From positions 1 to 34,541 of the forward strand of contig JAHWJY010000020.1 of the NCBI GenBank assembly GCA_019348135.1: a DNA stretch of 34,541 bases, written 5' to 3'. Below are positions 15,006-32,764 of the stretch, one piece after another (position 1 is the stretch's first letter; the number at the start of each line of letters is the position of its first letter). The translations under genes were made by a program, and so were the position numbers. The notes below the pieces were generated by a model that saw only the letters and a list, made by a program, of their open reading frames with translations, was not told where the DNA came from and ran no database searches. The DNA is from Actinomycetota bacterium. GTDB lineage: Bacteria; Actinomycetota; Nitriliruptoria; Nitriliruptorales; Nitriliruptoraceae.

Positions 15006-15959
15006 GTGGAGCGTGGACCGGAGGTGTCGGTCGTCGTGCCGACGCACGACCGCGCCGAGCTGATGCTGGCCACGCTCGCCTCGGCGCTGGCGCAGCGCGA
15101 CGTCGACCTCGAGGTCGTGGTCGTCGACGACGGCTCGACCGACGACACGCTCGAGGTGCTCGCGCAGGTCGACGACGACCGGCTGCGGGTCGTCCGCCAC
15201 GGCCACGCCCGGGGCGTCGGCGCCGCGCGGAACACCGGCATCCGCGAGGCACACGGCGAGTGGGTCGCGCCGCTCGACGACGACGACCTGTGGGCGCCGG
15301 GCAAGCTCGCCGCCCAGCTGGCCGCCGCGCGGGCGAGCGGACGCGACTGGGTGGTCACCCTCGCGGTCCAGTTCCTGCTGCCCGGACCGGTGCCGTGGGT
15401 CGCGTCCGGTCCACGCTCCGCCGAGTCGCTGTCCGCGGTCCTGCCGACGAAGAACGCCGTCCCCGGCGGCGGCTCCGGGGTGCTGGCACGCCGGGACGCG
15501 GTCCTGCGGCAGGGCGGGTTCGATCCCGACCTCTCCCTGCTGGGCGACTGGGACATGTGGCTGAAGCTGCTCCGGGCCGGACCGCCGGCCGTCGTGAACG
15601 AGCACCTCGTCGGCTACCGACTGCACCCCCAGAGCATGTCGGCACGCAACGCCGAGCGCGTCTTCTCCGAGCTCGCCGTCCTCGACGAGCGCTACCGGGA
15701 CCTGCGGGACGGTCACCCGCTGAAGCCGGTCGACACCTTCCGGTGGTTCGGCATGACCGCCTGGCGCAGCGGTGACCGCGCCGCAGCGCGACGCTGGTAC
15801 CTGCGCGGTGCGCGGGCCGGCGACCGTGCGGCCGTGGTCAAGGTCCTGCGCTCGCTGGTGCCCGTCCAGCGGCTCCGTCGGCACACCACGACGTGGCCGG
15901 AGGGCGTGCTGGACTGGCTCGAGCCGGCGCTCGGGGCGCGGCCCCCGTCGACGGTGTGA
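15006..15959 (+). CDS. GT2 family glycosyltransferase
   Basis: A 317-aa GT-A-fold transferase. SVVVPTHDR (8-16) and VVVVDDGSTDDT (37-48) bind the nucleotide; the metal-binding acidic run is LDDDDLW (90-96); GDWDMW is the acceptor/catalytic region. A C-terminal helical tail (about 245-317) contains WRSGDRAAARRWYLRGARAGD. Soluble, no membrane span. The same domain plus tail recurs as the N-terminal half of the fusion protein at 22373, with an identical 15-residue stretch ALAQRDVDLEVVVVD (27-41 here). The next gene starts in its stop codon. Donor and acceptor sugars cannot be deduced. Confidence 0.92.
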   Translation: MERGPEVSVVVPTHDRAELMLATLASALAQRDVDLEVVVVDDGSTDDTLEVLAQVDDDRLRVVRHGHARGVGAARNTGIREAHGEWVAPLDDDDLWAPGKLAAQLAAARASGRDWVVTLAVQFLLPGPVPWVASGPRSAESLSAVLPTKNAVPGGGSGVLARRDAVLRQGGFDPDLSLLGDWDMWLKLLRAGPPAVVNEHLVGYRLHPQSMSARNAERVFSELAVLDERYRDLRDGHPLKPVDTFRWFGMTAWRSGDRAAARRWYLRGARAGDRAAVVKVLRSLVPVQRLRRHTTTWPEGVLDWLEPALGARPPSTV

Positions 15960-16836: not shown

Positions 16837-17874
16837 TCAGCTCACCGGCTCGTCGCGCCACCGGAGGTGGTCGTCGACGCGTCCCTCGTCGATGAGCGAC
16901 TGCAGCCAGGCGATGCGGCGGTAGGTGAACGCGCGGTGCTCCGGTGCGAGGCCGTGCTCGCGGAACCGGTCGCGCAGCTGCTCCGCGCCCCGGCGCGCGT
17001 CCCACCGGGGATCGAAGGTCGGCAGCTCGCGACGGATCCTGTCGAAGCTCACGCGGTAGGACCGCGGATCGCCCCCGGCCTCGCCCGTGATCCGGATCGT
17101 GCTCCCGGGGACGACGTCCGCCACGATCGCGGCGAGCCCGCTCACCTGGTGGTTGTCGGCCTCGGTGCCGACGTTGAAGGCCCGGTCGTGCACGTCCTCG
17201 GCCGGTGCCTCCAGCGCCGAGAGGAAGGCACGCGAGATGTCCTCGATGTGCACGAGGGGGCGCCAGGGCGTGCCGTCGGACAGCACCAGGATCTCGCCGG
17301 TGAGGACGGCGGTCGCGACGAGGTCGTTCAGCACCAGGTCGAGCCGCAGCCGCGGCGACCAGCCGTAGGCCGTCGCGTTGCGGAGGTAGACCGGCGTGAA
17401 GCGGTCGTCGGCCAGCGACGCCAGGTCCGCCTCGACGGCGACCTTCGACTGCGCGTAGGCGCTCACCGGAGCCAGCGGCGCCGACTCGTCGACCAGGACG
17501 GTCGTGTCGGCGGCCCCGTAGACGCTGCACGAGGAGCTGTAGAGGAACCGTCGGACGCCGGCGTCCTTCGCGAGCTCCGCGAGCCGCGTCGATGCGTGGT
17601 GGTTGATGTCGTGGGTGTGCTCGGGCGCGAGGTCGCCGAGCGGGTCGTTCGAAAGGGCGGCGAGATGCACGATCGCGTCGATGCCGCGCAGGTCGTCCGC
17701 GCTGACGTCGCGCAGGTCGCGGCGGACCTCCTCGACGGGGGGGACCGGTGCGCCGTGGAGGCACGGTCGGAAGAGGCACGAGTCGAGCCCGACGACCTCG
17801 TGTCCGGCGCGCTGGAGCATCGGCGTCATGACCGTGCCGATGTAGCCGTCGTGCCCGGTCATCAGCACCCGCAC
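16837..17874 (-). CDS. NAD-dependent epimerase/dehydratase (extended SDR)
   Basis: A 345-aa extended SDR. The Rossmann entrance is GHDGYIG (7-13), then VHLAALSNDP, SSSCSVYG and the catalytic YAQSK (Tyr139, Lys143), with NATAYG and WRPLVHIEDISRAF downstream. Such 'GHxGYIG' SDRs often accompany rfbF/rfbC homologues in polysaccharide loci and act on nucleotide sugars as 4-epimerase, reductase or dehydratase; which one cannot be told. With rfbF lacking a neighbour dehydratase, this is the best candidate within the window. GTG 17874 is supported by AGGGGA 6 bases upstream and a TAGCAT -10 box. Confidence 0.88.
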   Translation of the reverse strand: MRVLMTGHDGYIGTVMTPMLQRAGHEVVGLDSCLFRPCLHGAPVPPVEEVRRDLRDVSADDLRGIDAIVHLAALSNDPLGDLAPEHTHDINHHASTRLAELAKDAGVRRFLYSSSCSVYGAADTTVLVDESAPLAPVSAYAQSKVAVEADLASLADDRFTPVYLRNATAYGWSPRLRLDLVLNDLVATAVLTGEILVLSDGTPWRPLVHIEDISRAFLSALEAPAEDVHDRAFNVGTEADNHQVSGLAAIVADVVPGSTIRITGEAGGDPRSYRVSFDRIRRELPTFDPRWDARRGAEQLRDRFREHGLAPEHRAFTYRRIAWLQSLIDEGRVDDHLRWRDEPVS

Positions 17875-17909
17875 GGCGGTTCCCCTGGCATCGGCGCATC
17901 GACCGCGGG

Positions 17910-17915
17910 ATGCTA
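17910..17915 (-). promoter_or_regulatory. Candidate -10 box of the SDR gene
   Basis: TAGCAT on the minus strand, 35 bases before GTG 17874; the implied leader holds the AGGGGA ribosome-binding site (17881-17886). It shares a 95-base divergent gap with the GT4 promoter at 17958. Confidence 0.42.
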
Positions 17916-17957
17916 CCCGGCGCTGACCCCGGCCCCCGGACGATCACGGCCCCGGAC

Positions 17958-17963
17958 TAGCCT
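17958..17963 (+). promoter_or_regulatory. -10 box of a probable leaderless gene
   Basis: TAGCCT is followed by exactly 6 bases and the GTG start at 17970, leaving no room for a leader or RBS. Actinobacterial leaderless genes show this spacing. The GMC gene at 22278 has the same arrangement. Confidence 0.5.
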
Positions 17964-17969
17964 GTCGTC

Positions 17970-19115
17970 GTGCGAGATCCGCGACGTGTCGTCATCGTGC
18001 AGCGGACGCTGCGCGCCTACCGGCGACCCTTCTACGACCTCCTCCGACCGGCGCTCGCCGGTCGCGGCATCGCCCTCCGGCTCGTCCACACGACACCGTC
18101 CGACCGGGTCGAGCCGGGTGCCGTCCCCGGGTGGGCCGAGCGGGCTGCGGGGCGCGTCCTCACCGCAGGGGGCCGGCAGCTGGTGTGGCAGTCGTTGGGC
18201 CGGTCCGTCCGCGGGAGCGACCTCGTGGTCGTGGAGCAGGCCGTGCAGCTCCTCGGCAACTACCCCCTCCTGGCGCGCCAGCGCTGGGGCGGACCGCGGG
18301 TCGCGATGTGGGGCCACGGTCGCACCTTCCACGCCGACGCGACGGGCGTTCTGGAGCGCGTCAAGGCGGCGGTCACCCGCGAGGCGCACTGGTTCTTCGC
18401 CTACAACGAGCTCGCCGTGCAGGCGGCGGTGGATCTCGGGATGCCGCCCGAGCGCGTCACCGACGTCCGGAACGCCACCGACACGGCGGCCCTGGCGCGG
18501 GCCGTCGCCGCCGTGGACGAGCCGGCGATCGCGGCCATGCGGGGTGAGCTCGGGCTGACCGGGGACCACGTGTGCGTCTTCCTGGGGTCGATCCACCCGG
18601 CGAAGGGGCTGCCGTTCCTCGTCGCCGCCGTCGAGCACGCGCGCCGTCGGATCCCGGACCTGGAGCTGGTGGTGGTCGGGGACGGCCCCGCCGCGCCGCA
18701 GCTCCGGCGGGAGACCGGTGACCGGGCGTGGATCCGGTGGGCGGGCACACGGACCGGCACGGACCTCGCCACGATCCTGGCGCTCGGCCGGGTGGCGGTC
18801 GTCCCGGGGTGGGCGGGCCTCGTGATCGCCGACTGCTTCGCCGCCGGCCTCCCGCTGGTGACGAGCGGGACGATGGCCCACCCACCCGAGATCGCCTACC
18901 TCCGGTCCGGCGTCAACGGTCTCCTCGTCGACGACGGTGGGGACCCGGCGCGGTACGCCGCTGCCGTGGTCGACCTCCTGACCGACGACGCGGCCCGGGC
19001 CTCACTCGCGCGTGGTGGGCGACGTTCGGCCGAGGGGCTGACCGTCGACGCCATGGCGGAGCGGTTCGCCGAGGGGGTCGAGCGCGCCCTGGCGGCACCC
19101 CGGCGTCACGGCTGA
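17970..19115 (+). CDS. GT4-like glycosyltransferase
   Basis: A 381-aa GT-B-fold transferase. The N-terminal half has QRTLRAYRRPFYDLLRP (11-27) and an AMWGHGRTF segment (112-120). The C-terminal donor-binding half has FLGSIHPAKG (204-213), VVVGDGP, and VVPGWAGLVIADCFAAGLP (277-295), which takes the place of the usual ExFGxxxxE signature with Trp-Ala-Gly instead. It is closely related to the C-terminal half of the fusion at 22373. No signal peptide. GTG 17970 lacks an RBS and lies 6 bases after a TAGCCT box. Its 3' end overlaps the convergent GMC gene by 10 bases. Confidence 0.87.
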   Translation: MRDPRRVVIVQRTLRAYRRPFYDLLRPALAGRGIALRLVHTTPSDRVEPGAVPGWAERAAGRVLTAGGRQLVWQSLGRSVRGSDLVVVEQAVQLLGNYPLLARQRWGGPRVAMWGHGRTFHADATGVLERVKAAVTREAHWFFAYNELAVQAAVDLGMPPERVTDVRNATDTAALARAVAAVDEPAIAAMRGELGLTGDHVCVFLGSIHPAKGLPFLVAAVEHARRRIPDLELVVVGDGPAAPQLRRETGDRAWIRWAGTRTGTDLATILALGRVAVVPGWAGLVIADCFAAGLPLVTSGTMAHPPEIAYLRSGVNGLLVDDGGDPARYAAAVVDLLTDDAARASLARGGRRSAEGLTVDAMAERFAEGVERALAAPRRHG

Positions 19116-20710
19116 GCCCGCAGGTGGGCCGCCAGTCGGGCGGCCAGGGCGAGGATCGTCAGCGTCGGGTTCGGCGTCCCCGATGTCGGGAAGACCGAGC
19201 TCCCCGTCACGTACACGTTGGCGACGCCGTGCAGGCGGCCATCCGGGTCGACGACGCCGGCCGCGGGATCCGCCGACATGCGGGTCGCGCCCATGTGGTG
19301 GTGGGTCCCCCCGAGCAGCTGGGCGGAGCCGTCGGGTTCCCGCACCAGGTCGGTCCGTCCCAGCCCGGCGGACGCGAACGCCTGGGCCAGCAGCACCTGG
19401 GCGGCGGCTGCGCCGGCGCGGTCGTCGTCCGTCCACGTCCAGTGCACGTCGGCGACCGGCGCGCCCAGGGCGTCCCGGCGTTCCGACAGCACGACGCGGT
19501 TCGTGCGGTCGGGGACCTGCTCGCAGCGCTGGACGAGCTCGAGGTCCGGCCACCGTCGTGCCGGACCGCTCTGGCGCGACCACCCCCCGCGGGACATCTC
19601 GGGCCACGCGTCGCGCCGTCGCGCCACCACGCCCCGCGCGACGCCGGCGACCGCGCGGGGGTGCCGCAGCGCAGCGACGACGGACCCGGCGTCCCGGGCC
19701 AGGACGGCGCGTCGCAGCTGGGAGGCGAGCTCGGGGTCGTAGCCGGCGGGCCGTGGCAACAGGTAGAACGCCGAGCCCGGCAGCTCGCCGCCCAGTCGTC
19801 CGCGGCCGACCACCAGGCGCCCCATGACGCGGCTGCCGTCGACGGTCCGGTGGTCGTAGAAGCCGAGGGCGGCGCGGATGCCCGGGCGGGAGCGCAGCAT
19901 GCCGGCACGGACCAGGGGATGGTCCATGAAGGTCCGGCCGACGAGGTCGTGGTCGTTGCCGAGACCGCCCCGTCCCCGGGCGGACGCCAGCAGCAGCCGG
20001 GCGTTCTCGATGCCGCCGGCGGCGAGGACGACCTCCCGGCACCGGACCCGGTGCCGACGTCCGGGCGCGCTCGCCACGACGACGTGGTCCACGCGGGCGT
20101 GCTCCACCACGAGCTCGGTCGCCGTCGCGTGCGTCGCGATACGGCAGGAGGGATCCGCCGTCACCCGGTCCCGGAGGTCGCGGGAGAGGCGCTCGCCCGG
20201 CGCGAACCGGAAGACGTCGGTGTCGACGTCGCGCAACGCGAGCGGTGCGGCGTCCGGCGCGGTCCAGGGGGCGGCGTCGTATCGGACCGGCCCGAGCCCG
20301 AGGAGCTCGTGCGCCCGGGCGTAGAAGGGCGCGAGGTCCCCGGCATCGAGGGGCCACGCGGCCCGCCACGAGGGCGCGCCCCGCAGGTCCTCGTCGCCGA
20401 ACGGGATCAGCCGCACGCCGTGGTCCGCGCCGTCGAGCGAGATGTCCCAGAGGTGCGCCGTGCCGCCCACCTGCCGGTGGCGGGTCCCGGTGAGGGGCGT
20501 GGCCCCGTACCGGGTGTCGCCGGAGACCGTGCCGACGCCGAGCCCCTGGGCACCGGGGACGGGCTCGGGGCCGCCGCTCTCCAGCAGCAGCACCTCGCGT
20601 CCGGCGCCGCGGAGCTCCGCGGCCACGGCCAGCCCGGCAGGGCCGGCGCCGACGATGCACAGGTCGGCCCGAAGCTCCTGGCCCTCCGCCAGGTCCCGGA
20701 GGTCGAGCAT
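19106..20710 (-). CDS. GMC-family FAD-dependent oxidoreductase, copy B
   Basis: A 534-aa flavoprotein. The FAD-binding site is DLCIVGAGPAGLAVA (16-30), followed by a GGTAHLWD motif, AGGIENARLLLAS, and a GMC C-terminal domain with the catalytic pair in THHHMGATRM (469-478) and NPTLT (514-518). It lacks a signal peptide or Tat motif, so it is cytoplasmic. GMC enzymes oxidise alcohols or sugar hydroxyls, passing electrons to oxygen or other acceptors; the substrate here is unknown, but the position among glycosyltransferases suggests a sugar. It follows its paralogue; the stop/start reads GTGATG, so either GTG 20713 or ATG 20710 may be the start. Paralogues share layout but are clearly diverged. 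Confidence 0.88.
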   Translation of the reverse strand: MLDLRDLAEGQELRADLCIVGAGPAGLAVAAELRGAGREVLLLESGGPEPVPGAQGLGVGTVSGDTRYGATPLTGTRHRQVGGTAHLWDISLDGADHGVRLIPFGDEDLRGAPSWRAAWPLDAGDLAPFYARAHELLGLGPVRYDAAPWTAPDAAPLALRDVDTDVFRFAPGERLSRDLRDRVTADPSCRIATHATATELVVEHARVDHVVVASAPGRRHRVRCREVVLAAGGIENARLLLASARGRGGLGNDHDLVGRTFMDHPLVRAGMLRSRPGIRAALGFYDHRTVDGSRVMGRLVVGRGRLGGELPGSAFYLLPRPAGYDPELASQLRRAVLARDAGSVVAALRHPRAVAGVARGVVARRRDAWPEMSRGGWSRQSGPARRWPDLELVQRCEQVPDRTNRVVLSERRDALGAPVADVHWTWTDDDRAGAAAAQVLLAQAFASAGLGRTDLVREPDGSAQLLGGTHHHMGATRMSADPAAGVVDPDGRLHGVANVYVTGSSVFPTSGTPNPTLTILALAARLAAHLRAQP

Positions 20711-22278
20711 CACCCCGCGGTCCGCAGCGAGCCGCGGAGGTGACGGGCCAGGCGGACGGCGAGGGCCACGACGGTCAGCGTGGGGTTGGCGACGCCACCC
20801 GTCGGGAAGACCGAGGCGCCCGTGACGTAGAGGTTGGACATCGTGTGGACCCGCTGGTCGGCGTCCACCACCCCCAGGCGCTCGTCGTCGTGCATCCGGG
20901 TCGTGCCCATGTGGTGGAAGCCGCCACCGATGAGGGGGGGCGGCTCCACGTCGCCGAACCGGTCCTCCACGTGCCCGAGACCCGCGTCGCGCAGCGCGCG
21001 GTCGAGGATGTCCTGACCGGCCCGTACCGCGGCCCGATCGCGTTCCGTCAGCCGCCAGTCGAGCCGCGCCACGGGCTGGCCGAACCGGTCGCGGCGCCCG
21101 CCGAGCGTGACGCGGGAGTCCGGGTGGGGCTCCTGCTCGGTCATCCCCACCAGCATCCCGACCTCCGGAGGACCGTCGCCCAGGGCCGCCCTGACCGCGC
21201 GTGCCGTCTGACCCGGTCGGCGGAGCAGGCCGGCGATGCGCGCACCGGTCCGGGGAACGGGCCGCCGGTAGCTCGCCAGGTCCCGGACCTCGGACAGCAG
21301 CTGCCCGGCTGCGGAGAGACGGGCCCGCGGGACCATGTGGACGGACCAGGCCGAGCCCAGCGCCCCCACGCGCTCGAGCGCGGCGGAGGAGGGCGCGAGC
21401 ATGCCCACGAGCTCGGTCCCGTCGACGTCGTGGCGATCGTAGACCTGCATCCGTCGGGCGAACGTCGGGTCCCGCGGCACGAGCACTCCGGAGCGGACGT
21501 GGGGGTGCTCCATGAAGTACCGGCCGACGCGGTCGTGGTGGTTGCCGAGGCCGGCCGGGCGGTCACGGCGGCTGAGCAGGAGCAGCCGGGCGTTGTCGAT
21601 CCCGCCCATCGCCAGCACGAACGCCCGCCCGTGCACCTCGAGCGTGCGGCCGTCTCCCGTCGTCGCCGTCGCCTCCGTCACGCGGTGGTCGTCGCTGTGC
21701 AGCTCGAGGACGGTGGTGGACGTGAGGACACGGACGTCCCGGAGGCGGTCGAGCTCGTCCCAGCGCGAGGTGAACGAGTCCAGCGGCCCGATCCGGAAGC
21801 GCCACGTCTCGATGAGGTCGGGATCCGTGGGCAGGGGCCCGGCGGTCGCCTCCGCCCAGCGGTCGGCGGTGACGTCGGGTCCCAGTCGGAGGAGCTCGGC
21901 CGCCCGCTCGTAGTCCCCGGCGAGCTCGGCACGGGAGAACGGCCAGCCGATGCGGCCGACGCTGGGGCGCGGGGCGAGATCGGCCGCGTCCAGCTCCCGC
22001 GCCCGGAAGCCGGAGTCACCCCGCCAGTGGTTGGACGTCCCGCCGAAGCCGCGGATCCGCGTGCTGTCGAGCCGGTAGTAGTGCGGGTCGCCGTTCTCGC
22101 CGCCGGCGAGCTGCTGGCCGCGACGGGAGATCCCTCGATCCCCGCTCTCCAGCACGCACACCGAGAGGCCGTGCCCGGCGAGCTCGAGGGCCAGCGCCAG
22201 ACCCGCGGGGCCGGCGCCGATGACGCACACATCGGTCTCGATGCGGTCCGCCGCGACCTGTCGTCCGTCCTCGATCAT
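20710..22278 (-). CDS. GMC-family FAD-dependent oxidoreductase, copy A
   Basis: A 522-aa flavoprotein, first of a coupled pair. TDVCVIGAGPAGLALALEL (15-33) binds FAD; GGTSNHW, AMGGIDNARLLLLS and the C-terminal HHMGTTRM (455-462) with NPTLT (498-502) complete the GMC set, so the active-site His and Asn are both present. No signal peptide. ATG 22278 lies exactly 6 bases after a TAGGCT box with no RBS, the layout of a leaderless transcript. The only genes nearby are glycosyltransferases and the paralogue downstream, so oxidation of a lipid- or nucleotide-linked sugar is a reasonable but untested role. Confidence 0.88.
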   Translation of the reverse strand: MIEDGRQVAADRIETDVCVIGAGPAGLALALELAGHGLSVCVLESGDRGISRRGQQLAGGENGDPHYYRLDSTRIRGFGGTSNHWRGDSGFRARELDAADLAPRPSVGRIGWPFSRAELAGDYERAAELLRLGPDVTADRWAEATAGPLPTDPDLIETWRFRIGPLDSFTSRWDELDRLRDVRVLTSTTVLELHSDDHRVTEATATTGDGRTLEVHGRAFVLAMGGIDNARLLLLSRRDRPAGLGNHHDRVGRYFMEHPHVRSGVLVPRDPTFARRMQVYDRHDVDGTELVGMLAPSSAALERVGALGSAWSVHMVPRARLSAAGQLLSEVRDLASYRRPVPRTGARIAGLLRRPGQTARAVRAALGDGPPEVGMLVGMTEQEPHPDSRVTLGGRRDRFGQPVARLDWRLTERDRAAVRAGQDILDRALRDAGLGHVEDRFGDVEPPPLIGGGFHHMGTTRMHDDERLGVVDADQRVHTMSNLYVTGASVFPTGGVANPTLTVVALAVRLARHLRGSLRTAG

Positions 22279-22372: not shown

Positions 22373-24487
22373 GTGCCCGACGTCTCCGTCGTCATCTCGA
22401 CCTACGACCGCGTGGCCATGCTGCGCGAGGCCCTGTGGTGCGCCCTGGCCCAGCGCGACGTCGACCTCGAGGTGGTCGTCGTCGACAACGGGTCGACCGA
22501 CGGCACGCAGGCCTACCTCGCCGAGGTGTCCGATCCACGCGTCCGCGTGATCCGCAACGACCGGTCCCTCGGGCCGACCGGCGGCAGGAACACCGGCCTC
22601 GCCGCGGCCGTCTCCCCCTGGGTGGCGTTCCTGGACGACGACGACCTGTGGTCGCCGGACAAGCTCCGTCGCCAGCTCGAGGAGGCGGAGCGGACGGGCG
22701 CCGGCTGGGTCTACTGCGGATGCGTCTACATCGACGCGGACCGTCGCATCCTCGGCGGTCGTCCTCCGCTCGCTCCGGCGGACGCCGCGGCGGTCCTGCC
22801 CCGGATGTACGTGGTGCCGGCAGGGCTGTCGGGGATGCTCTTCCGTCGCGACCGGGTCGACGGGGACGGTCTGCTGGACGACCGCCTCCGCTGGCAGACG
22901 GACTGGGACCTCTCCCTCCGGCTCCTCCGGACCGGACCCCCGGCGGCCGTGTCCGCCCCGCTCGTCGCGTACCGACAGCACGCCGGCCAGGTGTCCCAGG
23001 CCGCGTCCCGGTACGAGCCGGAGCTGGAGGTCATGGAGCGGAAGTTCGCGGACCTGCGCCAGCCCGACCAGCCGTTCGACCGCGGTGTGCAGCACCGTTT
23101 CGTCGCCTCGGAGGCGCTGCGGTCCGGGCAGCGCCGGATGGCGCTGCGGAGCTACGCGGCAGCCGTCCGGATGGGCGACACCGGATCCCTGCTGCGCTCG
23201 CTCGCCCTGTGGCTCCCGCGTCGCCTCCACCCCTGGTTGCGCCGCAGGCTGCTGTCGGACCCCGGCTGGCTGGCGGAGGCCGGGTCGTGGCTCGACGAGC
23301 TGCCCGCTCCCCGGCGCCGGGTCGTGTTCGTCCACCGGACGCTGCGCCGCTACCGCGTGCGGTTCTTCTCGGAGTTGCGCACGAGCCTCGCCGAGCACGG
23401 CGTCGACCTCGAGCTCCTGCACGCCAACCGCGACCTCGGTGGCCCCCGGCAGGACGCCGGCGAGCTGCCCTGGGCGACCGAGGTCCGGGCACGCTCGCTG
23501 TCCCTCCGTCGCCGGCAGGTGATCTGGCTCCTCGGCTGGCCGCTCATGCGGTCCGCGGACCTCCTGGTCGTCGAGCAGGCGTCGCGACTGGTCCTGAACG
23601 TGCTGCTCGGCGTGCGGCGGGCGCTGGGCGTACCCCCGCCGTACGCCCTCTGGGGGCACGGGATGAACTTCGATCCCGGCACCGCGAGCCGGCTCGGGGA
23701 GCGCGTGAAGCGCTGGATGACCCTGCGGGCCGACTGGTGGTTCGCCTACACCCGAGGGGCCGCCGACATCGTGGCGGGGTTGGGGTTCCCGGCAACGCGC
23801 ATCACGACCTTCGAGAACGCGACCGACACCACCGCCCTCGCGGCCGCGTCGGCACGTCTCGACCCGACCGCCATCGCGAAGGCCCGCGCCGACCTGGGCG
23901 TGCGCGGCGACCACACCTGTCTCTTCCTCGGGAACTTCGCCCCCGAGAAGCGGCTCGACCTCCTCGTCGCGGCCGGCGACCTGGTCCGTGAGCGTCTGCC
24001 GACGTTCGAGCTGCTGATGGTCGGCGCCGGCGAGCAGTCGGACGAGCTGCGACGGGCGGTCGCCTCCCGACCCTGGCTCCGCCTGGTCGGTCAGCGCTTC
24101 GGCGACGACCTCGCCGACGTGGCGTCCGTCTGCCGCCTGTTGCTGATCCCCGGCTGGGCCGGTCTGTCCGTCGTCGACAGCTTCGCGCTGGGACTCCCCA
24201 TCGTGATCAGCGCAGGGCTCCCGCACCCACCCGAGGTCGAGTACATCCAGCACGGGGTCAACGGGATCGTCTCGGACGACGAGGGACGAGCCGAGGGCTA
24301 CGCGGCGACCGTCGTCGAGCTGCTGAGCTCGCCGGACCTGCTGGGGGACCTGTCGGCGGGGGCCCGGGCCTCGTCCGGCACCTACACGCTCGAGGCCATG
24401 GTCGCCCGGGTCACCGCCGGCATCGTGGCGGCGCTGACGGCCGTCGACCGCCCGGCGTCCGGCCACGCGACCGGCGACCGCGCGTGA
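22373..24487 (+). CDS. Two-domain glycosyltransferase: GT2 fused to GT4-like
   Basis: A 704-aa protein. Residues 1-240 are a GT2 domain with VVVVDNGSTDGT (34-45) and LDDDDLW (87-93), followed by the same helical tail seen in the 15006 protein (SEALRSGQRRMALRSYAAA, 246-264). From about 315 a second transferase starts (VVFVHRTLRRYRVRFFSEL), with WGHG at 427-430, a FLGNFAPEKR donor-site opening and IPGWAGLSVVDSFALGLP. Each half matches a stand-alone gene of this locus (15006 and 17970), so the gene looks like a fusion of duplicated neighbours, and probably carries out two consecutive glycosyl transfers. It ends in a GTGA overlap with the next gene. Confidence 0.92.
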   Translation: MPDVSVVISTYDRVAMLREALWCALAQRDVDLEVVVVDNGSTDGTQAYLAEVSDPRVRVIRNDRSLGPTGGRNTGLAAAVSPWVAFLDDDDLWSPDKLRRQLEEAERTGAGWVYCGCVYIDADRRILGGRPPLAPADAAAVLPRMYVVPAGLSGMLFRRDRVDGDGLLDDRLRWQTDWDLSLRLLRTGPPAAVSAPLVAYRQHAGQVSQAASRYEPELEVMERKFADLRQPDQPFDRGVQHRFVASEALRSGQRRMALRSYAAAVRMGDTGSLLRSLALWLPRRLHPWLRRRLLSDPGWLAEAGSWLDELPAPRRRVVFVHRTLRRYRVRFFSELRTSLAEHGVDLELLHANRDLGGPRQDAGELPWATEVRARSLSLRRRQVIWLLGWPLMRSADLLVVEQASRLVLNVLLGVRRALGVPPPYALWGHGMNFDPGTASRLGERVKRWMTLRADWWFAYTRGAADIVAGLGFPATRITTFENATDTTALAAASARLDPTAIAKARADLGVRGDHTCLFLGNFAPEKRLDLLVAAGDLVRERLPTFELLMVGAGEQSDELRRAVASRPWLRLVGQRFGDDLADVASVCRLLLIPGWAGLSVVDSFALGLPIVISAGLPHPPEVEYIQHGVNGIVSDDEGRAEGYAATVVELLSSPDLLGDLSAGARASSGTYTLEAMVARVTAGIVAALTAVDRPASGHATGDRA

Positions 24488-25674
24488 GGATCCTCTCGGT
24501 CATCACGGCGTACCCACCCTCGACGGGGGGCGCACAGGTGCACGCCCACGAGCTCCACCGCTCGTTGCTCGCACGCGGCCACGAGGTGGTCGTCGCGACC
24601 GCGTGGCGGGAGACGAGGACCGACTGGGCCCTCGGGACGACGGTCCGCGCACCCGGACGACGGCCACCCGACGTGCTGGACGGCGTGCGCGTGGAGCACC
24701 TCGGTCTCGCGGCGAGCCGTCGGCTCCGGGCCGGCGCAGCCCTCGCCGCGTACCCCGCTGCCATGCGGACCCTCGCCCCGGCGCTCACGGCCGCCTACGC
24801 CCCGGCGGCCCGCGACGTCCTCGACCGGGTGCAGCCGGACGTCGTGCACCTGTCGCGGGTGGGGCGTGAGTGGCTGTACCAGGCCGTCGTCCGCGCCGCC
24901 CGCGCGCGTGGCATCCCCTACGTGCTCACCCCCAACCACCACCCCCACTGGACGCGGCCGTGGCACTGGTGGTGGTGGGAGCTCTACCGCCACGCCGACG
25001 CCGTCCTGGTCCTCTCGGAGCACGAAGCGGAGGCCATCGAGGCGGGCGGGGTCGACCGCGAGCGGATCGTCCGGACGGTCGTGGGTCCGGTCGGTGAGCC
25101 GCCGGAGCCCACCGCGGCGGACGCGCCACCGGACGTCCCGCCGGCGGTCGCCTTCCTCGGCCAGATCCGGCACTACAAGGGCCTCGACGTGCTGGAGGCC
25201 GCGATGCGGCTGGTCCGCAGCGAGCTGCCGGGGACCCGCCTCGCGGTCGTCGGGCCGTGGCTCGACGCCCCGGGCGCCCTGCGGCGGCGGCTGGAGGACG
25301 ACCCGCTGACGACCGTCCACGGGAGCGTCGACGAGGCCACGAAGTGGGGCGTCCTCCGGCGGTCGGCGCTGCTGTGCGTGCCGTCCTCCGGCGAGGCCCT
25401 CGGGGGGGTCTACCTCGAGGCGTGGCGCGTCGGGCGTCCCGCGGTCGGGGCGGACATCCCGCCCGTCCGGGAGCTGTTCGGCCGGACCGGGGGAGGCGTC
25501 GTGGTCGACCGCGATCCGGCGGCGCTCGCCGCGGTGCTGGTGGGCCTCCTCCGGGACCCCGTGCGACGCGACGAGCTCGGCACCGCCGGCCGTCGCGCGC
25601 TGGCGGAGGAGTACAACTGGGGGACGGCCGCGAGCCGTGCCGAGGACGCCTACGAGCTGGCCCGGCGTCCCTGA
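24484..25674 (+). CDS. GT4 family glycosyltransferase
   Basis: A 396-aa GT-B transferase. MRILSVITAYPPSTGGAQVH is the typical GT4 opening with a Gly-rich acceptor loop; ARARGIPYVLTPNHHPH resembles the linker before the donor domain; FLGQIRHYKGLDVL opens the nucleotide-sugar-binding half, and SSGEALGGVYLEAWRVGRP stands for the ExFGxxxxE signature (Glu in GEALG and LEAW). Residues around HWWWWELYRHAD are unusually Trp-rich. GTG 24484 overlaps the fusion gene stop (GTGA), so the two form an operon. Sugar specificity unknown. Confidence 0.92.
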   Translation: MRILSVITAYPPSTGGAQVHAHELHRSLLARGHEVVVATAWRETRTDWALGTTVRAPGRRPPDVLDGVRVEHLGLAASRRLRAGAALAAYPAAMRTLAPALTAAYAPAARDVLDRVQPDVVHLSRVGREWLYQAVVRAARARGIPYVLTPNHHPHWTRPWHWWWWELYRHADAVLVLSEHEAEAIEAGGVDRERIVRTVVGPVGEPPEPTAADAPPDVPPAVAFLGQIRHYKGLDVLEAAMRLVRSELPGTRLAVVGPWLDAPGALRRRLEDDPLTTVHGSVDEATKWGVLRRSALLCVPSSGEALGGVYLEAWRVGRPAVGADIPPVRELFGRTGGGVVVDRDPAALAAVLVGLLRDPVRRDELGTAGRRALAEEYNWGTAASRAEDAYELARRP

Positions 25675-25677
25675 TCC

Positions 25678-27354
25678 TCAGGGGAGCTCGTCCGCGCAGG
25701 ACGCCGCGCTGGGGTGGACGGGAGGGTCCTCGCCGGCGGGGACGGGCCCGTAGCGGGTCCGGGTGAACCGGGGCACGTCCGACGCCGGCACGGGTCGACG
25801 GTCCGGCACCAGGGTGGAGACCCGCCCCTCGCGATCCATGCCCTCGTCGCGCCACGTCGCCCAGTCGATCGGGTCGGCGTCGTCGCCCAGCACCCAGAAG
25901 CGTCCCTCCGGGTCCGGGACGGACCAGTGGTTGCGCTCGAAGCGGACGGTGTCGCGACCTTCGGTCAGCTCGGTCTCGATGCGCATCCCGGAGTGGTCGT
26001 CGTGCGCCACGACGTTGTCGTGCACCCACAGCCCGGTCGTGCGCCGGGGCCCGTGGTCGCCCGTCTCCTCCTCGTCGGCGTCACGCGCGAGGATGCCCAG
26101 CGGCTGACCCGAGACGACGTTGTGGGCGATCTCGACGTCGCTCGTGTTCGAGACGAAGATGCCCGTGCTGGCGGCCTCCTCACCGGCGCGGAGGTTGCCG
26201 TGGACCTCGTTCCAGAACACGCGCGCGCCCTGACCGATCTCCGGGAAGATCCCGATGACGTTGTCCTCGACCAGGTTGGCGCAACCGACCGCGTCCTCGT
26301 TGTCGATGTCCCACCACAGGCCGGGCCCGTCGTTGCCGTGGACGTGGTTGTTGGCGAAGGCCATGCCGGAGGTGAGCGTGAACTTCGTCCCGCCGCCCTC
26401 CCAGCGCCAGTAGAAGCCGAGCTGGCGGTTGTCCGCGATCTCGTTCGACAGGACCCGGAGGGGCCGGGCCCCGCCGGGCTCCACGGGTGACTCGCTGTGC
26501 CGCGCCCCCGGACCGCCGATCCCGGCCTGTCCGTTGCCGGCGAACCGCGAGTGCTCGACGAGCATCCCCGGCCCCGTGCCGAGGCCGTAGGCGTGGTTGG
26601 AGGACGCGTCCACCGATCGCACGGTCCAGTCGACGGTGTGCCGACCGTTGATGGCCCCACGTTGCGCCGGGGTGGCGTAGTGCCGGACCACCAGGTTCTC
26701 GATCGTGACGTCGCGGACGCCCTCGCCCACGAAGGCGAAGTCCGCCACCGCGAGCTCGAGCAGGTCCCACCGTCCCGGGTCGGCGGCGAGGTGGAGCCGG
26801 TCGGCGTCGTAGTCGAGGTACCACTCGTGCTCGGTGTCGAGGTCCGCGAGCTGCTCCACGTGACGCAGCCGCTGTCCGTCGGCGTAGAGGTCCTCCGGGT
26901 GCGCCTCGCGTTCGTGGCCCTCGATCATCGTGCCGTGGACGAACCCCTCGGCGTCCACCCCGTCGAGCACCCACGCGGAGCCCTCGCGACGGAACGCGTC
27001 GGCATCGAGGAGCTGCGCCCCGGACATCACCGCCCCGGGCTCACCGGTGAAGCGGTCCCCGTCGCGCGGTTCGACGGAGAGCTGCCGGTGCACGCCCGAC
27101 GCGAGCAGGAAGGACGTCCCCGGCGGATGGTCGCGGACGAGCGCCTGGAGGTCGTCGCCCACCTCGACCCGCACCGCGCCGGCCGGGGGCGGGACGTCGG
27201 GTGCCGGCGGGAGCGGCGTGCGGGTCGGTGGATCGCCACCGCGCACCTCCCGTCCGGGGAGGGGGTCGGCCGGCCCGGCGGTGAGCTGCCACGACACGAC
27301 GCCCGCCGCCACGGCGACCACGACGGCGAGGCCCACGGCGAGGAGCCGGCTCAG
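25678..27354 (-). CDS. Membrane-anchored right-handed parallel beta-helix protein
   Basis: About 558 aa. A signal/anchor (SRLLAVGLAVVVAVAAG) is followed by a Pro-rich linker and, from about residue 70, a long repeat-rich region of short strands with Asn ladders: VTIENLVVRH, MLVEHSRFAGNGQAGIG, VEIAHNVVSGQPLGI, GLWVHDNVVAHDDHSGM. This is the pectate-lyase/parallel-beta-helix architecture of polysaccharide lyases, epimerases and hydrolases; no catalytic set can be named. The start is uncertain: CTG 27354 forms a CTGA overlap with the upstream stop and gives a good MSR- signal; GTG 27336 lacks the basic n-region, and GTG 27423 would overlap by 72 bases. Likely acts outside the cell on the locus' glycan. 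Confidence 0.82.
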   Translation of the reverse strand: MSRLLAVGLAVVVAVAAGVVSWQLTAGPADPLPGREVRGGDPPTRTPLPPAPDVPPPAGAVRVEVGDDLQALVRDHPPGTSFLLASGVHRQLSVEPRDGDRFTGEPGAVMSGAQLLDADAFRREGSAWVLDGVDAEGFVHGTMIEGHEREAHPEDLYADGQRLRHVEQLADLDTEHEWYLDYDADRLHLAADPGRWDLLELAVADFAFVGEGVRDVTIENLVVRHYATPAQRGAINGRHTVDWTVRSVDASSNHAYGLGTGPGMLVEHSRFAGNGQAGIGGPGARHSESPVEPGGARPLRVLSNEIADNRQLGFYWRWEGGGTKFTLTSGMAFANNHVHGNDGPGLWWDIDNEDAVGCANLVEDNVIGIFPEIGQGARVFWNEVHGNLRAGEEAASTGIFVSNTSDVEIAHNVVSGQPLGILARDADEEETGDHGPRRTTGLWVHDNVVAHDDHSGMRIETELTEGRDTVRFERNHWSVPDPEGRFWVLGDDADPIDWATWRDEGMDREGRVSTLVPDRRPVPASDVPRFTRTRYGPVPAGEDPPVHPSAASCADELP

Positions 27355-29162
27355 GACCCGCCCCCGTGTCGCAACGCCGCGCCGAGCCGGCGGAGGTACG
27401 GGCTCACGAAGTACACGGGCCACAGGGGTCCGGCCCACCGGCGGGCGAAGGCTCGCCACTCCCGGGGAGGCAGGCCCTTGGGGCTGCGCAGGTGCCGGAG
27501 CTCGGCGGCGGCGTCGCGCACCGAGGGCGGGTTGGCGGCGCACGTCCCGACCGTCCCCGGCGCCAGCAGGACCGTGACGCCACGGCACCGGGCGCGCAGT
27601 CCGTAGTCGAAGTCACCCATGCCGTGGGTGAACCGGGCGTCGAGGTTGCCCACGCGTTCCGCGACGGTCGCGGGGACGAGCACGCAGTTGCCGTTGATCG
27701 TCTCCACCTCGACGGGAGCGTCCCCCGGCTCGACCCGCGAGAAGCGCAGCGGACGGCCGGCGTGCTCCCGTCGCACGCCGCCGTAGGTCAGCGCGCCCGT
27801 GTCCGGGTCGCGGGTCGCCCCGGCGACGATCGCCTCCCCCGCGTCCCGCCAGACGGCGAGCAGCCGGGCGACGGCGTCGCGATCGAGGATCGTGTCGTCG
27901 TTCAGCCACAGGTAGGCGTCGGGGACCGGATCGCGCTGACGTGCCAGCTCCCACGCGCGACGCATGCCCGCGTTCCAGTAGAGCTCCGGCCCCGCCTCGT
28001 CGACGTGGGCCGACGGGAACCGCTCACGGACCGCCGCCGCGGTCCCGTCGCTCGAGCCGGCGTCGACGAGGACGACGTCGAGGTCGGCATCGACCTCCTG
28101 GTCGTGCAGGGCGGCGAGGCTGGCCAGCGTCACCTCGCGTCGGTCGTGCGACGTCGCGAGGACCGCGATCCGTGGTCGTGTCGCGGCGCGGTCGTCGGTG
28201 GCGGGCCGACGGGTGGGCGTCGACGCGGCGCGGCGGATCCGGGGCAGGCCCCGCCACCCGTGCCCGTCGACGGCGGCGACCCATCCACCATCCGCCAGCC
28301 GGTGCGCGTCGAGGTGGTGCATGCGCTCGACGTTCCAGGCACGGCGGCCGGGCGACAGGACGGGGGAGTCGCCGACGGGGCGCTCGCGGTAGGACCCGGG
28401 GGACAGCTCCACGACCTCGCTGGCCCAGACGCGTTCGCCGTAGGACGCGGTCGCCTCCTGCGTGAACCGCAGGAGGCGGTCGTCGAGGGTCAGCACGCGC
28501 CCCGCTGAGCGCGTGGAGACGCCCGTGTCGCTGACGACCGGGCTCGCCGGGTGCTCCTCCCAGCCGTGGTCCAGCGCGGCGCTGCCGTAGAGGCGCAGCA
28601 CCGGGGAGGTCCCCCCCGTGGTCGTCCACAGCCACCACCGGCCCCCGTGGCGCGCCAGGCTCGGATCGGCGAAGTCGTGGCCCCGGAGGAGCTCGGAGAC
28701 CTGCTCCCACCGGTGCGGGCCGGCGGTGGCTCGCCACAGCCCGATCGACCCGTCGGCTCCGGACTCGGGGACCATCAGGATCTCGCCATCCGCACGGAAC
28801 ACGTACGGGTAGGACAGGTGGTGGGCGGCCCGGAGGACGATGCCCTCGTACTCCCAGTGGACGAGGTCCCGGCTGCGCGCGAGCCCGATCTCGCCACGCT
28901 CCCGGTCCGCGTTCAGCACCTCGAACAGCAGCGACCAACCGTCGTCGCCCGGCAGCAGGAAGGGATCGGCCACGAACCGGGCGGGGACGTCGGTCACGTG
29001 GTGGGGCTCGAGGACGGGGTTCGGGTCGGGCGCGGGCGCGGTGAGGGACAGCGGTGACGGGCCGACGTGGATGCCGATGGACCAGCGCATCGAGCGGCTC
29101 GCACGCCCCGTCCGCAGTGATCGGACGAGGGTCGGGCCTCGTCCGTTCGGCCCGCTGGCCAC
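27351..29162 (-). CDS. GINT1-type beta-propeller fused to GT2 glycosyltransferase
   Basis: A 603-aa cytoplasmic protein. The N-terminal ~300 residues match the glucosamine inositolphosphorylceramide transferase 1 N-terminal family, a five-bladed propeller resembling GH43 folds: RFVADPFLLPGDDGW (62-76), EIGLARSRDLVHWEYEG, SYPYVF (117-122), VPES (131-134) and a second blade ADPSL (165-169). After a basic linker a GT2 domain (331 to ~560) follows with VVLVDAGSSDGT and LWLNDDT (418-424), the rhamnosyltransferase-like metal site. The start GTG 29162 is set by GAGGAG 5 bases upstream; GTG 29168 overlaps the RBS and ATG 29090 is the point where family members often begin. The beta-helix gene follows in overlap. 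Confidence 0.88.
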   Translation of the reverse strand: MASGPNGRGPTLVRSLRTGRASRSMRWSIGIHVGPSPLSLTAPAPDPNPVLEPHHVTDVPARFVADPFLLPGDDGWSLLFEVLNADRERGEIGLARSRDLVHWEYEGIVLRAAHHLSYPYVFRADGEILMVPESGADGSIGLWRATAGPHRWEQVSELLRGHDFADPSLARHGGRWWLWTTTGGTSPVLRLYGSAALDHGWEEHPASPVVSDTGVSTRSAGRVLTLDDRLLRFTQEATASYGERVWASEVVELSPGSYRERPVGDSPVLSPGRRAWNVERMHHLDAHRLADGGWVAAVDGHGWRGLPRIRRAASTPTRRPATDDRAATRPRIAVLATSHDRREVTLASLAALHDQEVDADLDVVLVDAGSSDGTAAAVRERFPSAHVDEAGPELYWNAGMRRAWELARQRDPVPDAYLWLNDDTILDRDAVARLLAVWRDAGEAIVAGATRDPDTGALTYGGVRREHAGRPLRFSRVEPGDAPVEVETINGNCVLVPATVAERVGNLDARFTHGMGDFDYGLRARCRGVTVLLAPGTVGTCAANPPSVRDAAAELRHLRSPKGLPPREWRAFARRWAGPLWPVYFVSPYLRRLGAALRHGGGS

Positions 29163-29232
29163 GTTCACTCCTCGCCCGTTCGGGTGTGACTCTCGCCCCC
29201 GGGCTCAAGTGTGCGGGGGGAGCTCCGATGAG

Positions 29233-29356: not shown

Positions 29357-31603
29357 TTGTCGTCGTCGACTCTCGTCCACCGTAGCGTCACCGGCACCTC
29401 GGTCCGGATCCTCATCCTCGCGCTGGCCCTCAGCGTCCTCGTGGGTGTGGCACCGCCCGCCGCGGAGGCATCGACCGGGCCGGTCCGCCTCGGGCTCCAC
29501 GTCACCGACGTCGAGCTCGACGCGTGGCGCGCACGGGCCACGACCGGGCCGTACCGGCGCGCCGGCGACGCCGGGACGAACTCGCCCGGCGACTGGGACC
29601 GGATCGTCTCCAACCGCGCCGACTTCCTCGCGTCGCCGGCATCCTTCCGCTGGGCGGGCCCCGCGGACCCCGGTGGCTGCATCGACTTCCCTGGCGGCAT
29701 CCAGTACGACCCGCCCGTCGCCACCAGCCGCGGCCTGCGCGATGCCGCGTTCCACGCGATGGTGACCGACGACGCGGCGACCCGACGCACCGTGGCGCAG
29801 TCCCTCGTCGCGCAGGCACGCGTGTCGAACCTCGACTTCTCGAACCGCGCCCGGTGGTGCCTCGACGTCATCGACGACCTCAACCCCGGCTTCGAGATCG
29901 CCAACTGGCTGACCTCGCTCCTGTACGCCGTCGAGTACGTCGAGATCGGGGACCGGCTGGGCGGGACCGCCTCGTTCACGGCCGCCGATCGACAGGTCGT
30001 GCTCGACTGGATGTACCACGCCGCCGAGTTCATGAACTTCGACACGAACAAGTCGCTCCGGTCCATCTTCCCGGACCGCGACCAGAAGGCCGCGCCCCCG
30101 TACACGCTGAGCTCGACCCTCCAGGAGAACGCCTACTACGAGAAGACGCCGTACGACGGCGCGGGCCTCACCATCGGCGGCATCGCGCGGTACTACAACA
30201 ACCGCAACGCCGCCAAGCAGCGGTTCGTGGGGCTCCTCGGCCTGCACCTGTCGCAGCGCACCGACGGCTACGTCGCGCCGACCGGTCAGCAGGGCTACAC
30301 CGCGGCGAGCTACGTCCGGGACGCGAGCAAGTTCGCGCGTGACTTCCTCGTCTACTCCACCTACCCGGCCGGGTACGTGGGGGAGTTCGAGCGCTGGAAG
30401 ACCGAGCTGCCGGACCTCGGCTGGGCGTACGCCGGCCAGGCACTCGCCCCGATCCTCACCTACGTCGACGCGCTCGCCCGCACGGGGGACCGCTCGCTGT
30501 ACGACTTCACGACGAGCGCCGGCGTCCACAACACCGAGGGCACCCCGGCCGGCACGTCGGGGAAGAACTGGCGCTGGGCCGTCAACCAGTTCGTCAGCTT
30601 CCGGACGACCCAGGTCCGCTACATCCCGGGCCACGGAGGCGATGCGAACTACCGGATCGACGGCACGCACGGGAGCTGGCAGTCCATCCACGAGGTGATG
30701 TTCGCCCCCTTCAACCGCTACTGGCAGGACGGCGCCCTCGAGGACATCCTCCTGCGGACGACCTCCGCGGTCCCGGCCTACCCCTCCTCGCCGGCGAGCG
30801 TCGGGCAGTACTCGGTGTGGAACGGTGACTGGGGCACGCTCCCGGCCACGATGTTCATGACCGCGCAGATGCCGGCCGGCACGAGCCCGTACGACGCCAC
30901 CGCGCCGGCGCCCGAGCCGATCGTCGAGGAGGAGGAGACCGTCCTCGAGCCGGCGCCGAAGGCCAAGAACCCCCGGCGTCCGAAGGCGCTCGTGGCGGAC
31001 TACTCCCTGGCCTGCCCCGGGTTCACCACGGAGACGGCCTTCGAGGACGTGGCCGGGTCGGTCCACCTCGAGGCCATCGCGTGCCTCGCGGACGCCGGCA
31101 TCGCCACCGGCACGACGCCGACGACGTTCTCGCCCCACGCATCCGTGAGCCGCGGGCAGCTGGCGGCGTTCGTCACCCGCCTGCTCGAGGTGGCCCGTCC
31201 GGAGCTCGCGTCGCTCGTCCCGTCGGACCCGTTCTCCGACGACGACGGCAACCCGCACGAGCGCAGCATCAACGTCCTCGCCCACCTCGGCATCCTCGAC
31301 GGGACCGGGCAGGGACGCTTCTCGCCGGCGGCTCCGGTCCAGCGGGCGCAGGCCGCGTCGATCCTCGTGGCCGCATCCTCCTACCTCGGTGGCACGCCGC
31401 CCGTCGACGCCGTCGACTACTTCGCCGACGACGACGGGACGGTCCACGAGGCCGCGATCAACGACGCGGCCGCGCTCGGGATGGTCAGCGGGACCGGCGG
31501 CGAGCTCTACGCCCCGACCGGCGCGGTCAGCCGCGGCCAGATGGCGACGATGCTCACCCGCCTCGCGTCCGTCAACGGGGTCTCACTCACCGGCGTGGCC
31601 TGA
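29357..31603 (+). CDS. Secreted SLH-anchored protein with polysaccharide lyase-like domain
   Basis: A 748-aa protein starting at TTG 29357 after a riboswitch and AAGGAG. A signal peptide covers 1 to ~38. Residues ~45-510 form an all-helical enzyme-like domain resembling alginate-lyase/heparinase-type alpha-alpha toroids (VTDVELDAWRARA opening, NPGFEIANWLTSLLYAVEY, IGGIARYYNNRNAAKQ, HGSWQSIHEVMFAPFNRYW); the match is by overall pattern, and the canonical NNH of alginate lyases is not seen. A charged Pro/Glu/Lys linker (515-548) leads to three SLH repeats (about 556-748) in which the usual TRAE is replaced by SRGQ, QRAQ and SRGQ. SLH repeats bind cell-wall polymers, so this enzyme should sit on the surface. 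It overlaps the convergent gene by 21 bases. Confidence 0.82.
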   Translation: MSSSTLVHRSVTGTSVRILILALALSVLVGVAPPAAEASTGPVRLGLHVTDVELDAWRARATTGPYRRAGDAGTNSPGDWDRIVSNRADFLASPASFRWAGPADPGGCIDFPGGIQYDPPVATSRGLRDAAFHAMVTDDAATRRTVAQSLVAQARVSNLDFSNRARWCLDVIDDLNPGFEIANWLTSLLYAVEYVEIGDRLGGTASFTAADRQVVLDWMYHAAEFMNFDTNKSLRSIFPDRDQKAAPPYTLSSTLQENAYYEKTPYDGAGLTIGGIARYYNNRNAAKQRFVGLLGLHLSQRTDGYVAPTGQQGYTAASYVRDASKFARDFLVYSTYPAGYVGEFERWKTELPDLGWAYAGQALAPILTYVDALARTGDRSLYDFTTSAGVHNTEGTPAGTSGKNWRWAVNQFVSFRTTQVRYIPGHGGDANYRIDGTHGSWQSIHEVMFAPFNRYWQDGALEDILLRTTSAVPAYPSSPASVGQYSVWNGDWGTLPATMFMTAQMPAGTSPYDATAPAPEPIVEEEETVLEPAPKAKNPRRPKALVADYSLACPGFTTETAFEDVAGSVHLEAIACLADAGIATGTTPTTFSPHASVSRGQLAAFVTRLLEVARPELASLVPSDPFSDDDGNPHERSINVLAHLGILDGTGQGRFSPAAPVQRAQAASILVAASSYLGGTPPVDAVDYFADDDGTVHEAAINDAAALGMVSGTGGELYAPTGAVSRGQMATMLTRLASVNGVSLTGVA

Positions 31604-32764
31604 CCCCAGCACCGCCTGCCTCCAGCGGGGCAGGATCCGCTCCGGGGTCAGGTCACGGCGGTGCCGTGACCGGGCCGCCTCCTGCATCCGCGCGTACATG
31701 GCGGGATCGCCGAGCACCGCCGCGACCGTCTCGGCCGCCCCGTCCGGGTCGGTGAGGTCCCACACCCGCCCTTCGACGCCGTCGGAGAACACCTCCGGGA
31801 TCGCGCCCCGCGCCGGAGCCAGCACCGGCACGCCCGCGGCGAGCGACTCGGCCAGGACGATCCCGAAGCTCTCGGTCCGGGCGGCGTGGACGTACAGCCG
31901 GTGGGACGGCAGCCACCGTGCCGCGTCCGCGACCCGGCCCGGGAACCGCACGACGTCCGTGAGACCCAGGACCGCGGTCCGTCCCTCGAGGGCGGCTCGG
32001 TCCGGTCCGTCGCCGACGAGCGTCAGGGTCCACCGGTGCCCGCGCCGCCGACCGGCGGCCAGCACCTCCAGCAGGAAGCCCTGGTTCTTGCGCGGCTCGA
32101 GGGTCCCGATGGAGATGAGGTCGCCGGTCGGCGCGTCCGGATCGGGGACCGCCGCCTCGACGGGGTGGGGGATGACCTCGCAGGGCGCGTCCACGTCCGC
32201 ACCCCAGCGACCGGTGACGGTCTCGAGGCTGAACCGCGAGGGGAACACGACCAGGTCGGAGCCGCGCACCATGAGGCGCTCGCGCCGGTCGAGGAGGCGG
32301 GCGTGGAGCCCGCCCGGCCGGGCCCGGCCCCGCTCCACCAGCTCCGCGGCCTCCGACTCGTTGTAGTGGGCCGTGCTGACCACGCGTGCCGACGGTCGGA
32401 GACGTCGCGCCGCCAGGGCGGCCGCCGTCGCGGACGGTTCCTGGGCGTAGAGGACGACGGTGCGGCCGCGGTGGCGGACGAGGAGTCCCACGACGTGGAG
32501 CGCGAGGATGGCCTCGAAGCCGATCCTGGTCCAGACCGAACCCAGCTCGGGGTGGAGACGCCCGAGCAGCGCCCCGACGGTGGTCACGGCGCGTCGCCGC
32601 CACCGCGAGACGCTCCAGGGCGAGGCGAAGCGCGCCTCGACCCCCCAGTCCGTTGCCGCCTCCATCACGAGATCCACGTGCTGGTGGATCCCCGTCTCGC
32701 CCCGCCGCCCCAGGAACGACAGCACCACCAGCAGCGGGCGTCGGTCGGGCTCGGTCCCGTTCAC
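31583..32764 (-). CDS. GT4 family glycosyltransferase
   Basis: A 393-aa GT-B transferase. An N-terminal acceptor domain opens with LLVVLSFLGRRGETGIHQHVD; the donor domain has SIGTLEPRKNQGFLLEV, TLVGDGPDRAAL and the GT4 signature ARTESFGIVLAESLAAG with two glutamates. The hydrophobic stretch about 85-100 (AILALHVVGLLV) may touch the membrane. GTG 32764 overlaps the stop of the Wzy-type gene as GTGA, so it is the last gene of an operon reading in from the right edge. Its 3' end overlaps the SLH protein gene by 21 bases on the opposite strand. Confidence 0.92.
   Translation of the reverse strand: MNGTEPDRRPLLVVLSFLGRRGETGIHQHVDLVMEAATDWGVEARFASPWSVSRWRRRAVTTVGALLGRLHPELGSVWTRIGFEAILALHVVGLLVRHRGRTVVLYAQEPSATAAALAARRLRPSARVVSTAHYNESEAAELVERGRARPGGLHARLLDRRERLMVRGSDLVVFPSRFSLETVTGRWGADVDAPCEVIPHPVEAAVPDPDAPTGDLISIGTLEPRKNQGFLLEVLAAGRRRGHRWTLTLVGDGPDRAALEGRTAVLGLTDVVRFPGRVADAARWLPSHRLYVHAARTESFGIVLAESLAAGVPVLAPARGAIPEVFSDGVEGRVWDLTDPDGAAETVAAVLGDPAMYARMQEAARSRHRRDLTPERILPRWRQAVLGSGHAGE

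Follow-up and report, generated by a model that had tools for sequence, protein, structure and literature searches.

In the O antigens of Klebsiella, co-operating glycosyltransferase (GT) modules are carried in one chain (WbbB of O12) or on separate interacting proteins (O4 and O7) (PMC11231755). These multi-GT polymerases are the closest experimental parallel to the fused transferase described here, with which they would share the use of two GT modules for one repeat unit (PMC11231755). The Klebsiella systems are, however, ABC-transporter-dependent and provided with chain terminators, whereas the locus analysed here looks Wzy-type. Two alternating sugars are also handled by one bifunctional chain in the chondroitin synthase K4CP and in the heparosan synthases. 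A GT2 domain of K4CP matches the GT2 half of the fusion by sequence and fold, but K4CP is a processive polymerase with two GT2 domains, whereas the fusion pairs a GT2 with a GT4-like GT-B domain. This second domain resembles the retaining GT4 transferases (MshA, BshA, PimA, HepE and WsaF) in its complete GT-B fold and its matches to PF13692 and PF00534, and its family differs from them in the EX7E motif. Fusions of GT2 and GT4-like modules in other Actinomycetota show the same arrangement, with the GT2 N-terminal, the same GT4-like module C-terminal and a short junction between them, but two other subfamilies supply their GT2 halves, and these fusions stem from separate events.

A full-text search of the open-licence literature returned no paper on fusions of the GT4-like family or on the polysaccharide loci of this class. 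The enzyme class is already known; what is new is the recurrent C-terminal capture of the GT4-like family and its altered motif. The fusion was found in a stretch of 34,541 nucleotides (hereafter the window) from a Nitriliruptoraceae genome bin (GCA_019348135.1, contig JAHWJY010000020.1), which is 71.6% complete and the one genome from which this fusion is known (G000:C243).

Two complete glycosyltransferase domains in one continuous frame

The fused gene occupies positions 22373–24487 of the forward strand, from a GTG start at 22373, directly preceded by an AGGGAG that is plausible as a ribosome-binding site, to a stop at 24485–24487, and encodes 704 amino acids. Third-position G+C remained at 0.95–0.97 through the junction of the two halves, and the gene is thus a single continuous coding frame. 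Pfam placed a GT2 domain at residues 5–125 and a GT4-type domain at 514–652. Two complete GT domains are present within one frame, as in bifunctional enzymes of the K4CP or WbbB type, in agreement with the fusion glycosyltransferase proposed in the earlier note on this DNA. A canonical GT4 gene (24484–25674, +) follows, the GTG of which overlaps the stop of the fusion by 4 bases (GTGA); therefore, both genes are probably translationally coupled.

The N half (residues 1–308; 22373–23296, +) matched PF00535 with an E value of 1.3e-33 and 116.7 bits, against a curated cut-off of 23.3. In the family alignment, the motifs DDDD (88–91) and DWD (177–179) and the residues Y200 and H203 were all present, and D88–D91 and D177, which correspond to the DXD-type metal site and the catalytic Asp, were invariant among 17 aligned GT2 family members. 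Both halves were folded separately with AlphaFold2, and the model of the N half (pLDDT 93) showed a GT-A fold followed by six C-terminal helices, the helical tail covering residues 208–307. The structures nearest to it were those of the GT2 enzymes 6p61, K4CP, TarP and SpsA. An inverting, metal- and DXD-dependent transferase is expected from these features.

The C half (residues 315–704; 23315–24484, +) matched PF13692 (E 5.5e-16, 59.6 bits) and PF00534 (48.6 bits), both above the cut-off. Its AlphaFold2 model (pLDDT 93.6) had a complete GT-B fold, with MshA, HepE and BshA as the nearest structures (TM about 0.7), and the motifs WGHG, a conserved K, PG..GL...D and H..E were recognised, so that a retaining transferase is expected. 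The EX7E motif by which GT4 enzymes are recognised was altered: the first Glu was missing in 46 of 46 genes of the family and replaced by a small residue, the second was Asp in 44 of them, and the alignment with MshA left a three-residue gap where the segment of the first Glu falls. For this reason, the C half is referred to as GT4-like and not as GT4. Shortly after the position of the second Glu, there is an H-x-x-E motif with His and Glu invariant across the family; in the numbering of the C half, Lys216, Asn172, His308 and Glu311 were conserved in all 46 members.

The halves are joined by the six residues ELPAPR (309–314; 23297–23314, +). The stand-alone GT2 relatives terminate 4–17 residues past a conserved W-L (residues 306–307 of the fusion), and the stand-alone GT4-like relatives start at R/VVIVQ (residues 315–319). 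Both halves are full-length compared to these relatives, with a join of about 6–8 residues. As the ends of the former and the starts of the latter fit the junction, two complete enzymes are joined end to end with practically no linker. The possibility of two separate genes with an internal start was rejected, as the sole start codon near the junction, a GTG at 23324, is not preceded at a suitable spacing by a ribosome-binding site.

Proposed function and the surrounding locus

The window carries what looks like a surface-polysaccharide locus of the Wzy type. By Pfam, it encodes a priming sugar-phosphate transferase (PF02397; 8260–8979, +) and a WecG/TagA-type transferase (PF03808; 8999–9760, −). 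A putative Wzy, an O-antigen ligase/polymerase-like membrane protein (32761–34050, −), is proposed from a weak match to Wzy_C (PF04932), of 22 bits and under the cut-off of 31.7. Further genes encode a DUF4012 protein, an NTP transferase, a protein of the dTDP-sugar epimerase type and a NAD epimerase, along with several GT2 and GT4 enzymes and two GMC oxidoreductases. No Wzx flippase was recognised among the annotated genes of the window, which ends inside a GT4 gene; therefore, the locus may continue elsewhere.

The fused protein is proposed, with some confidence, to be a bifunctional transferase that adds two successive sugars to a polyprenol-linked repeat unit of a Wzy-type polysaccharide, and to derive from two pre-existing stand-alone genes other than copies of the neighbours 15006 and 17970. 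These two genes, the orthologues of which are still separate in related Nitriliruptoria, would have become joined end to end. The inverting GT2 half would then add one sugar to the polyprenol-PP-linked repeat unit and the retaining GT4-like half would add another in succession, either order of the halves being compatible with the sequence. From homology and genomic context, we infer that both domains are catalytic, that they act consecutively and that the product is a polysaccharide.

It could be argued that only one of the halves is catalytic, with the GT4-like half, given its atypical donor site, or else the GT2 half serving as a scaffold or acceptor-binding module. The replacement of the first EX7E Glu by a small residue and the Asp at the second position in 44 of the 46 genes would fit this idea, as both glutamates are present in the other GT4 structures compared, where the first contacts O3 of the donor sugar (PMC3898925). 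However, the four residues invariant in all 46 members and the complete fold are unlike a decayed domain, and WsaF, a working CAZy GT4, also lacks the first Glu: its E333 corresponds to the second, and the preceding stretch is replaced by a proline-rich motif (PMC3898925). With this precedent, the missing Glu in the C half may change how the donor is recognised and still leave the enzyme active, and the loss of catalysis in one half is considered unlikely. The C half is therefore a candidate for unusual donor recognition, and catalysis by both halves of a bifunctional enzyme is the reading preferred here.

Several other features of the locus were recorded. Nucleotide-sugar genes at 12232–14968 (−) encode a DRL-type oxidoreductase, an RmlC dTDP-sugar epimerase type and a sugar-1-phosphate nucleotidyltransferase (possibly a cytidylyltransferase), and suggest an unusual deoxysugar. 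A tandem pair of GMC-type oxidoreductases (19106–22278, −) lies between the two GT4-like genes; comparable GMC genes adjoin GT4-like genes in G045 (L045, 2780–6000) and G017 (L043, 9437–9871). A second fused transferase of the locus (27351–29168, −) combines a GINT1_N-type domain with a GT2, and its counterparts are a GT2 without the GINT1_N part in G050 (L040, 17722–18516) and a GINT1_N part without the GT2 in G023 (L042, 985–1854); in genomes of the G359 type, a GT2 of this kind is joined to the GT4-like family instead. A large protein that looks exported and carries three SLH repeats at its C terminus is also encoded within the polysaccharide locus (29357–31603, +).

Recurrent fusion of the GT4-like family

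The search for the same fusion in related genomes that had been suggested earlier gave no second copy among 66 genomes of the class. The GT4-like family was present in 6 of these 66, with an additional weak partial match in G014, and the four genomes with the clade of the N half all carried it (4/4). This co-occurrence had a hypergeometric p of 2e-5, or 2e-4 without the genome of the window, values whose significance is inflated by the kinship of the genomes. Across the phylum, the profile of the GT4-like family was found in 8 of 397 sampled genomes, also in other classes.

In other Actinomycetota, the GT4-like module was fused to three further types of partner, two of them other GT2 subfamilies and one a canonical GT4, which together with the fusion of the window makes four; the module was C-terminal in every fusion found. 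The first type (a) has as partner the GINT-type GT2, the subfamily found at the C end of the window gene 27351–29168, and was detected in the genera g226 (G359, G614, G676 and G938, the contig of the latter beginning inside the GT2) and g396 (G925, G927 and G928). The partner of the second type (b) is a GT2 subfamily with a GDDD motif, present in five genomes of family f120 (G981, G1002, G1021, G1158 and G1197; loci L188, L193, L194, L195 and L197). In the third (c), a canonical GT4 is the partner (G924 and G928; L182, 301–2637, and L184). Each fusion claimed was verified by alignment or Pfam, and the large open frames seen around many GT4 matches were discarded as fusions, being mostly high-G+C read-through.

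Some neighbouring genes of these fusions were also observed. In at least three genomes (G1021, G1158 and G1197), the GDDD-type fusion is closely preceded by a stand-alone GT4-like paralogue, and the fusions of canonical GT4 and GT4-like (WGHG-bearing) modules of G924 and G928 come directly after a GINT-type GT2 gene.

Five changes between the fused and the stand-alone state were needed in a tree of 46 members of the GT4-like family, at least four of them forced by strongly supported branches. A common origin of the fusion of the window and the seven GINT-type fusions was rejected with these 46 sequences (p = 0.002), an earlier set of 18 sequences with three GINT-type fusions having given a borderline p of 0.06. 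In G583, the GT4-like gene and a type (a) GT2 are immediate neighbours with the same orientation.

The two domains could also perform unrelated steps, on different linkages or glycans, and owe their fusion to chance in a locus dense with transferase genes. Other GT4s of the same genomes are at times fused to a GT, and the locus itself contains another GT fusion (27351–29168). However, when seven genomes were compared, 4 of 11 GT4-like genes were fused to another GT, compared to about 4 of the 157 other GT4 matches listed (p = 6e-4), a difference that is indicative only, the genomes being partly picked for having fusions, the GT2 profile home-made and the check limited to frames of at least 600 amino acids. 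Furthermore, the fusions of the GT4-like family recur with different partners and, within every other lineage, have been retained by several species. A neutral fusion is thus regarded as quite improbable. Although fusion alone does not imply consecutive action, functional coupling of the halves is plausible, and it is better supported than it would be by the fusion alone.

More tentatively, and with clear reservations, the GT4-like family might be a portable module for the "next step", with a donor site of a non-EX7E kind, captured independently, and always at the C-terminal side, by at least four kinds of transferases in polysaccharide loci of Actinomycetota, so that each of its fusions would mark two adjacent linkages of the repeat unit. 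If this were true, the fusion partners could reveal the order of the repeat unit from sequence. The assignment of linkages to individual glycosyltransferases is a long-standing bottleneck in the study of polysaccharide loci, and recurrent fusion of one transferase family to different partner transferases gives direct hints on which enzymes work side by side. With the stand-alone and fused versions that occur in nature, it could also readily be tested whether the joining of two transferases improves the assembly of the repeat unit.

Origin of the two halves

The earlier note had related each half to a separate gene of the same locus, and both similarities were confirmed by pairwise alignment. 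Residues 2–282 of the N half, including the C-terminal tail, aligned with the product of the stand-alone GT2 gene 15006–15959 (+) at 44% identity (E = 2e-46), and residues 315–693 with that of the stand-alone GT4-like gene 17970–19115 (+) at 43% identity (E = 1e-85). Within the genome bin as a whole, no product matched the respective half better than these two, and the next best reached 27–34% identity. The paralogy was upheld, but it is not recent: where residues were identical, the fraction of identical codons was 52% for the N half and 56% for the C half, compared to the 53–54% expected from codon usage. Therefore, the paralogy with both neighbours is old.

For the N half, stand-alone orthologues with 56–58% identity were found in G007, G023 and G050, which represent three other genera, one of them in another family. 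G050 corresponds to Egibacteraceae YX2bin43 (contig JAUJNX010000004.1). Together with the N half, these three GT2 proteins formed a clade with 100/100 support, with 15006 outside, and an AU test rejected a clade of the N half with 15006 (p = 2.4e-6). By score against the N half, 15006 was about the fifteenth of the 20 relatives compared. The N half is not derived from a duplicate of 15006, and its source is a type of stand-alone gene kept in related Nitriliruptoria, as judged from these trees.

The placement of the C half was not settled in smaller trees. In the 46-member tree, it grouped with the stand-alone genes of G017 and G050 (98/84), with 17970 as the next branch out (95/87), and a sister relation of the C half and 17970 gave an AU p of 0.40 with the 46 sequences (0.27–0.40 over the tests run). 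The C half is thus a member of the GT4-like family that includes 17970 and branches with stand-alone genes of other genera, its parentage by 17970 being neither supported nor excluded (p = 0.40).

The identical run of 15 residues, ALAQRDVDLEVVVVD, on which the earlier note had relied is real (residues 24–38 of the N half and 27–41 of 15006). It is no sign of a recent origin, because no strand of the GT2 family is more conserved than the one in which it falls, and other pairs of the family share runs of 10–14 residues. The motifs shared by the C half and 17970 were likewise found, but they are largely family-wide: WGHG was present in about 45 of the 46 members, and all 46 have the last G and the L of PGWAGL as well as the H and the last E of HPPE.

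The proposal that 15006 and 17970 were duplicated and their copies fused, which would make these neighbours the direct parents of the fusion and partners in action, is consequently very improbable. Both are the best matches in their own genome, 15006 has the longest stretch of identical residues in common with the fusion, and the p of 0.27–0.40 would allow 17970 as sister of the C half. However, a recent duplication of the two neighbours was ruled out by the trees, the AU test and the codon identities, with no residual codon similarity left, and the three genera with orthologues of the N half show 56–58% identity, against 44% for 15006. The outcome that the earlier note had named as contrary to it, a placement of the halves closer to other proteins than to 15006 and 17970, was thus obtained by trees for the N half, and a neighbour origin of the C half stays at p = 0.40. 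The functional link drawn from the fusion by Rosetta-stone logic applies to the GT2 type of the N half and the GT4-like family, given their co-occurrence and the fusions found elsewhere, but not to 15006 with 17970 in particular; extending it to them is an extrapolation by paralogy, weakened because the GT4-like module accepts many partners. The origin from two other stand-alone genes is preferred.

In G050 and G023, the stand-alone GT2 and GT4-like genes are in divergent orientation with about 3 kb between them; therefore, the fusion required a rearrangement, and losing a single stop codon would not have sufficed. An assembly or sequencing artefact, in which tandem genes of the bin were merged by misassembly or an erroneous base, might be suspected of a fusion seen in a single incomplete bin, but it is hardly credible, given that the domains are not separated by any intergenic remnant, that third-position G+C shows no break, that the single possible internal start lacks a suitably spaced ribosome-binding site, that one base error would be insufficient for divergent genes at such a distance, and that independent GT2–GT4 fusions occur in other species.

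The sequence upstream of 17970 was also considered as a possible counterpart of the fusion linker, as an alignment (17865–19106) extended into it through a stop; its translation is stop-interrupted and rich in Arg and Pro, and it looks non-coding.
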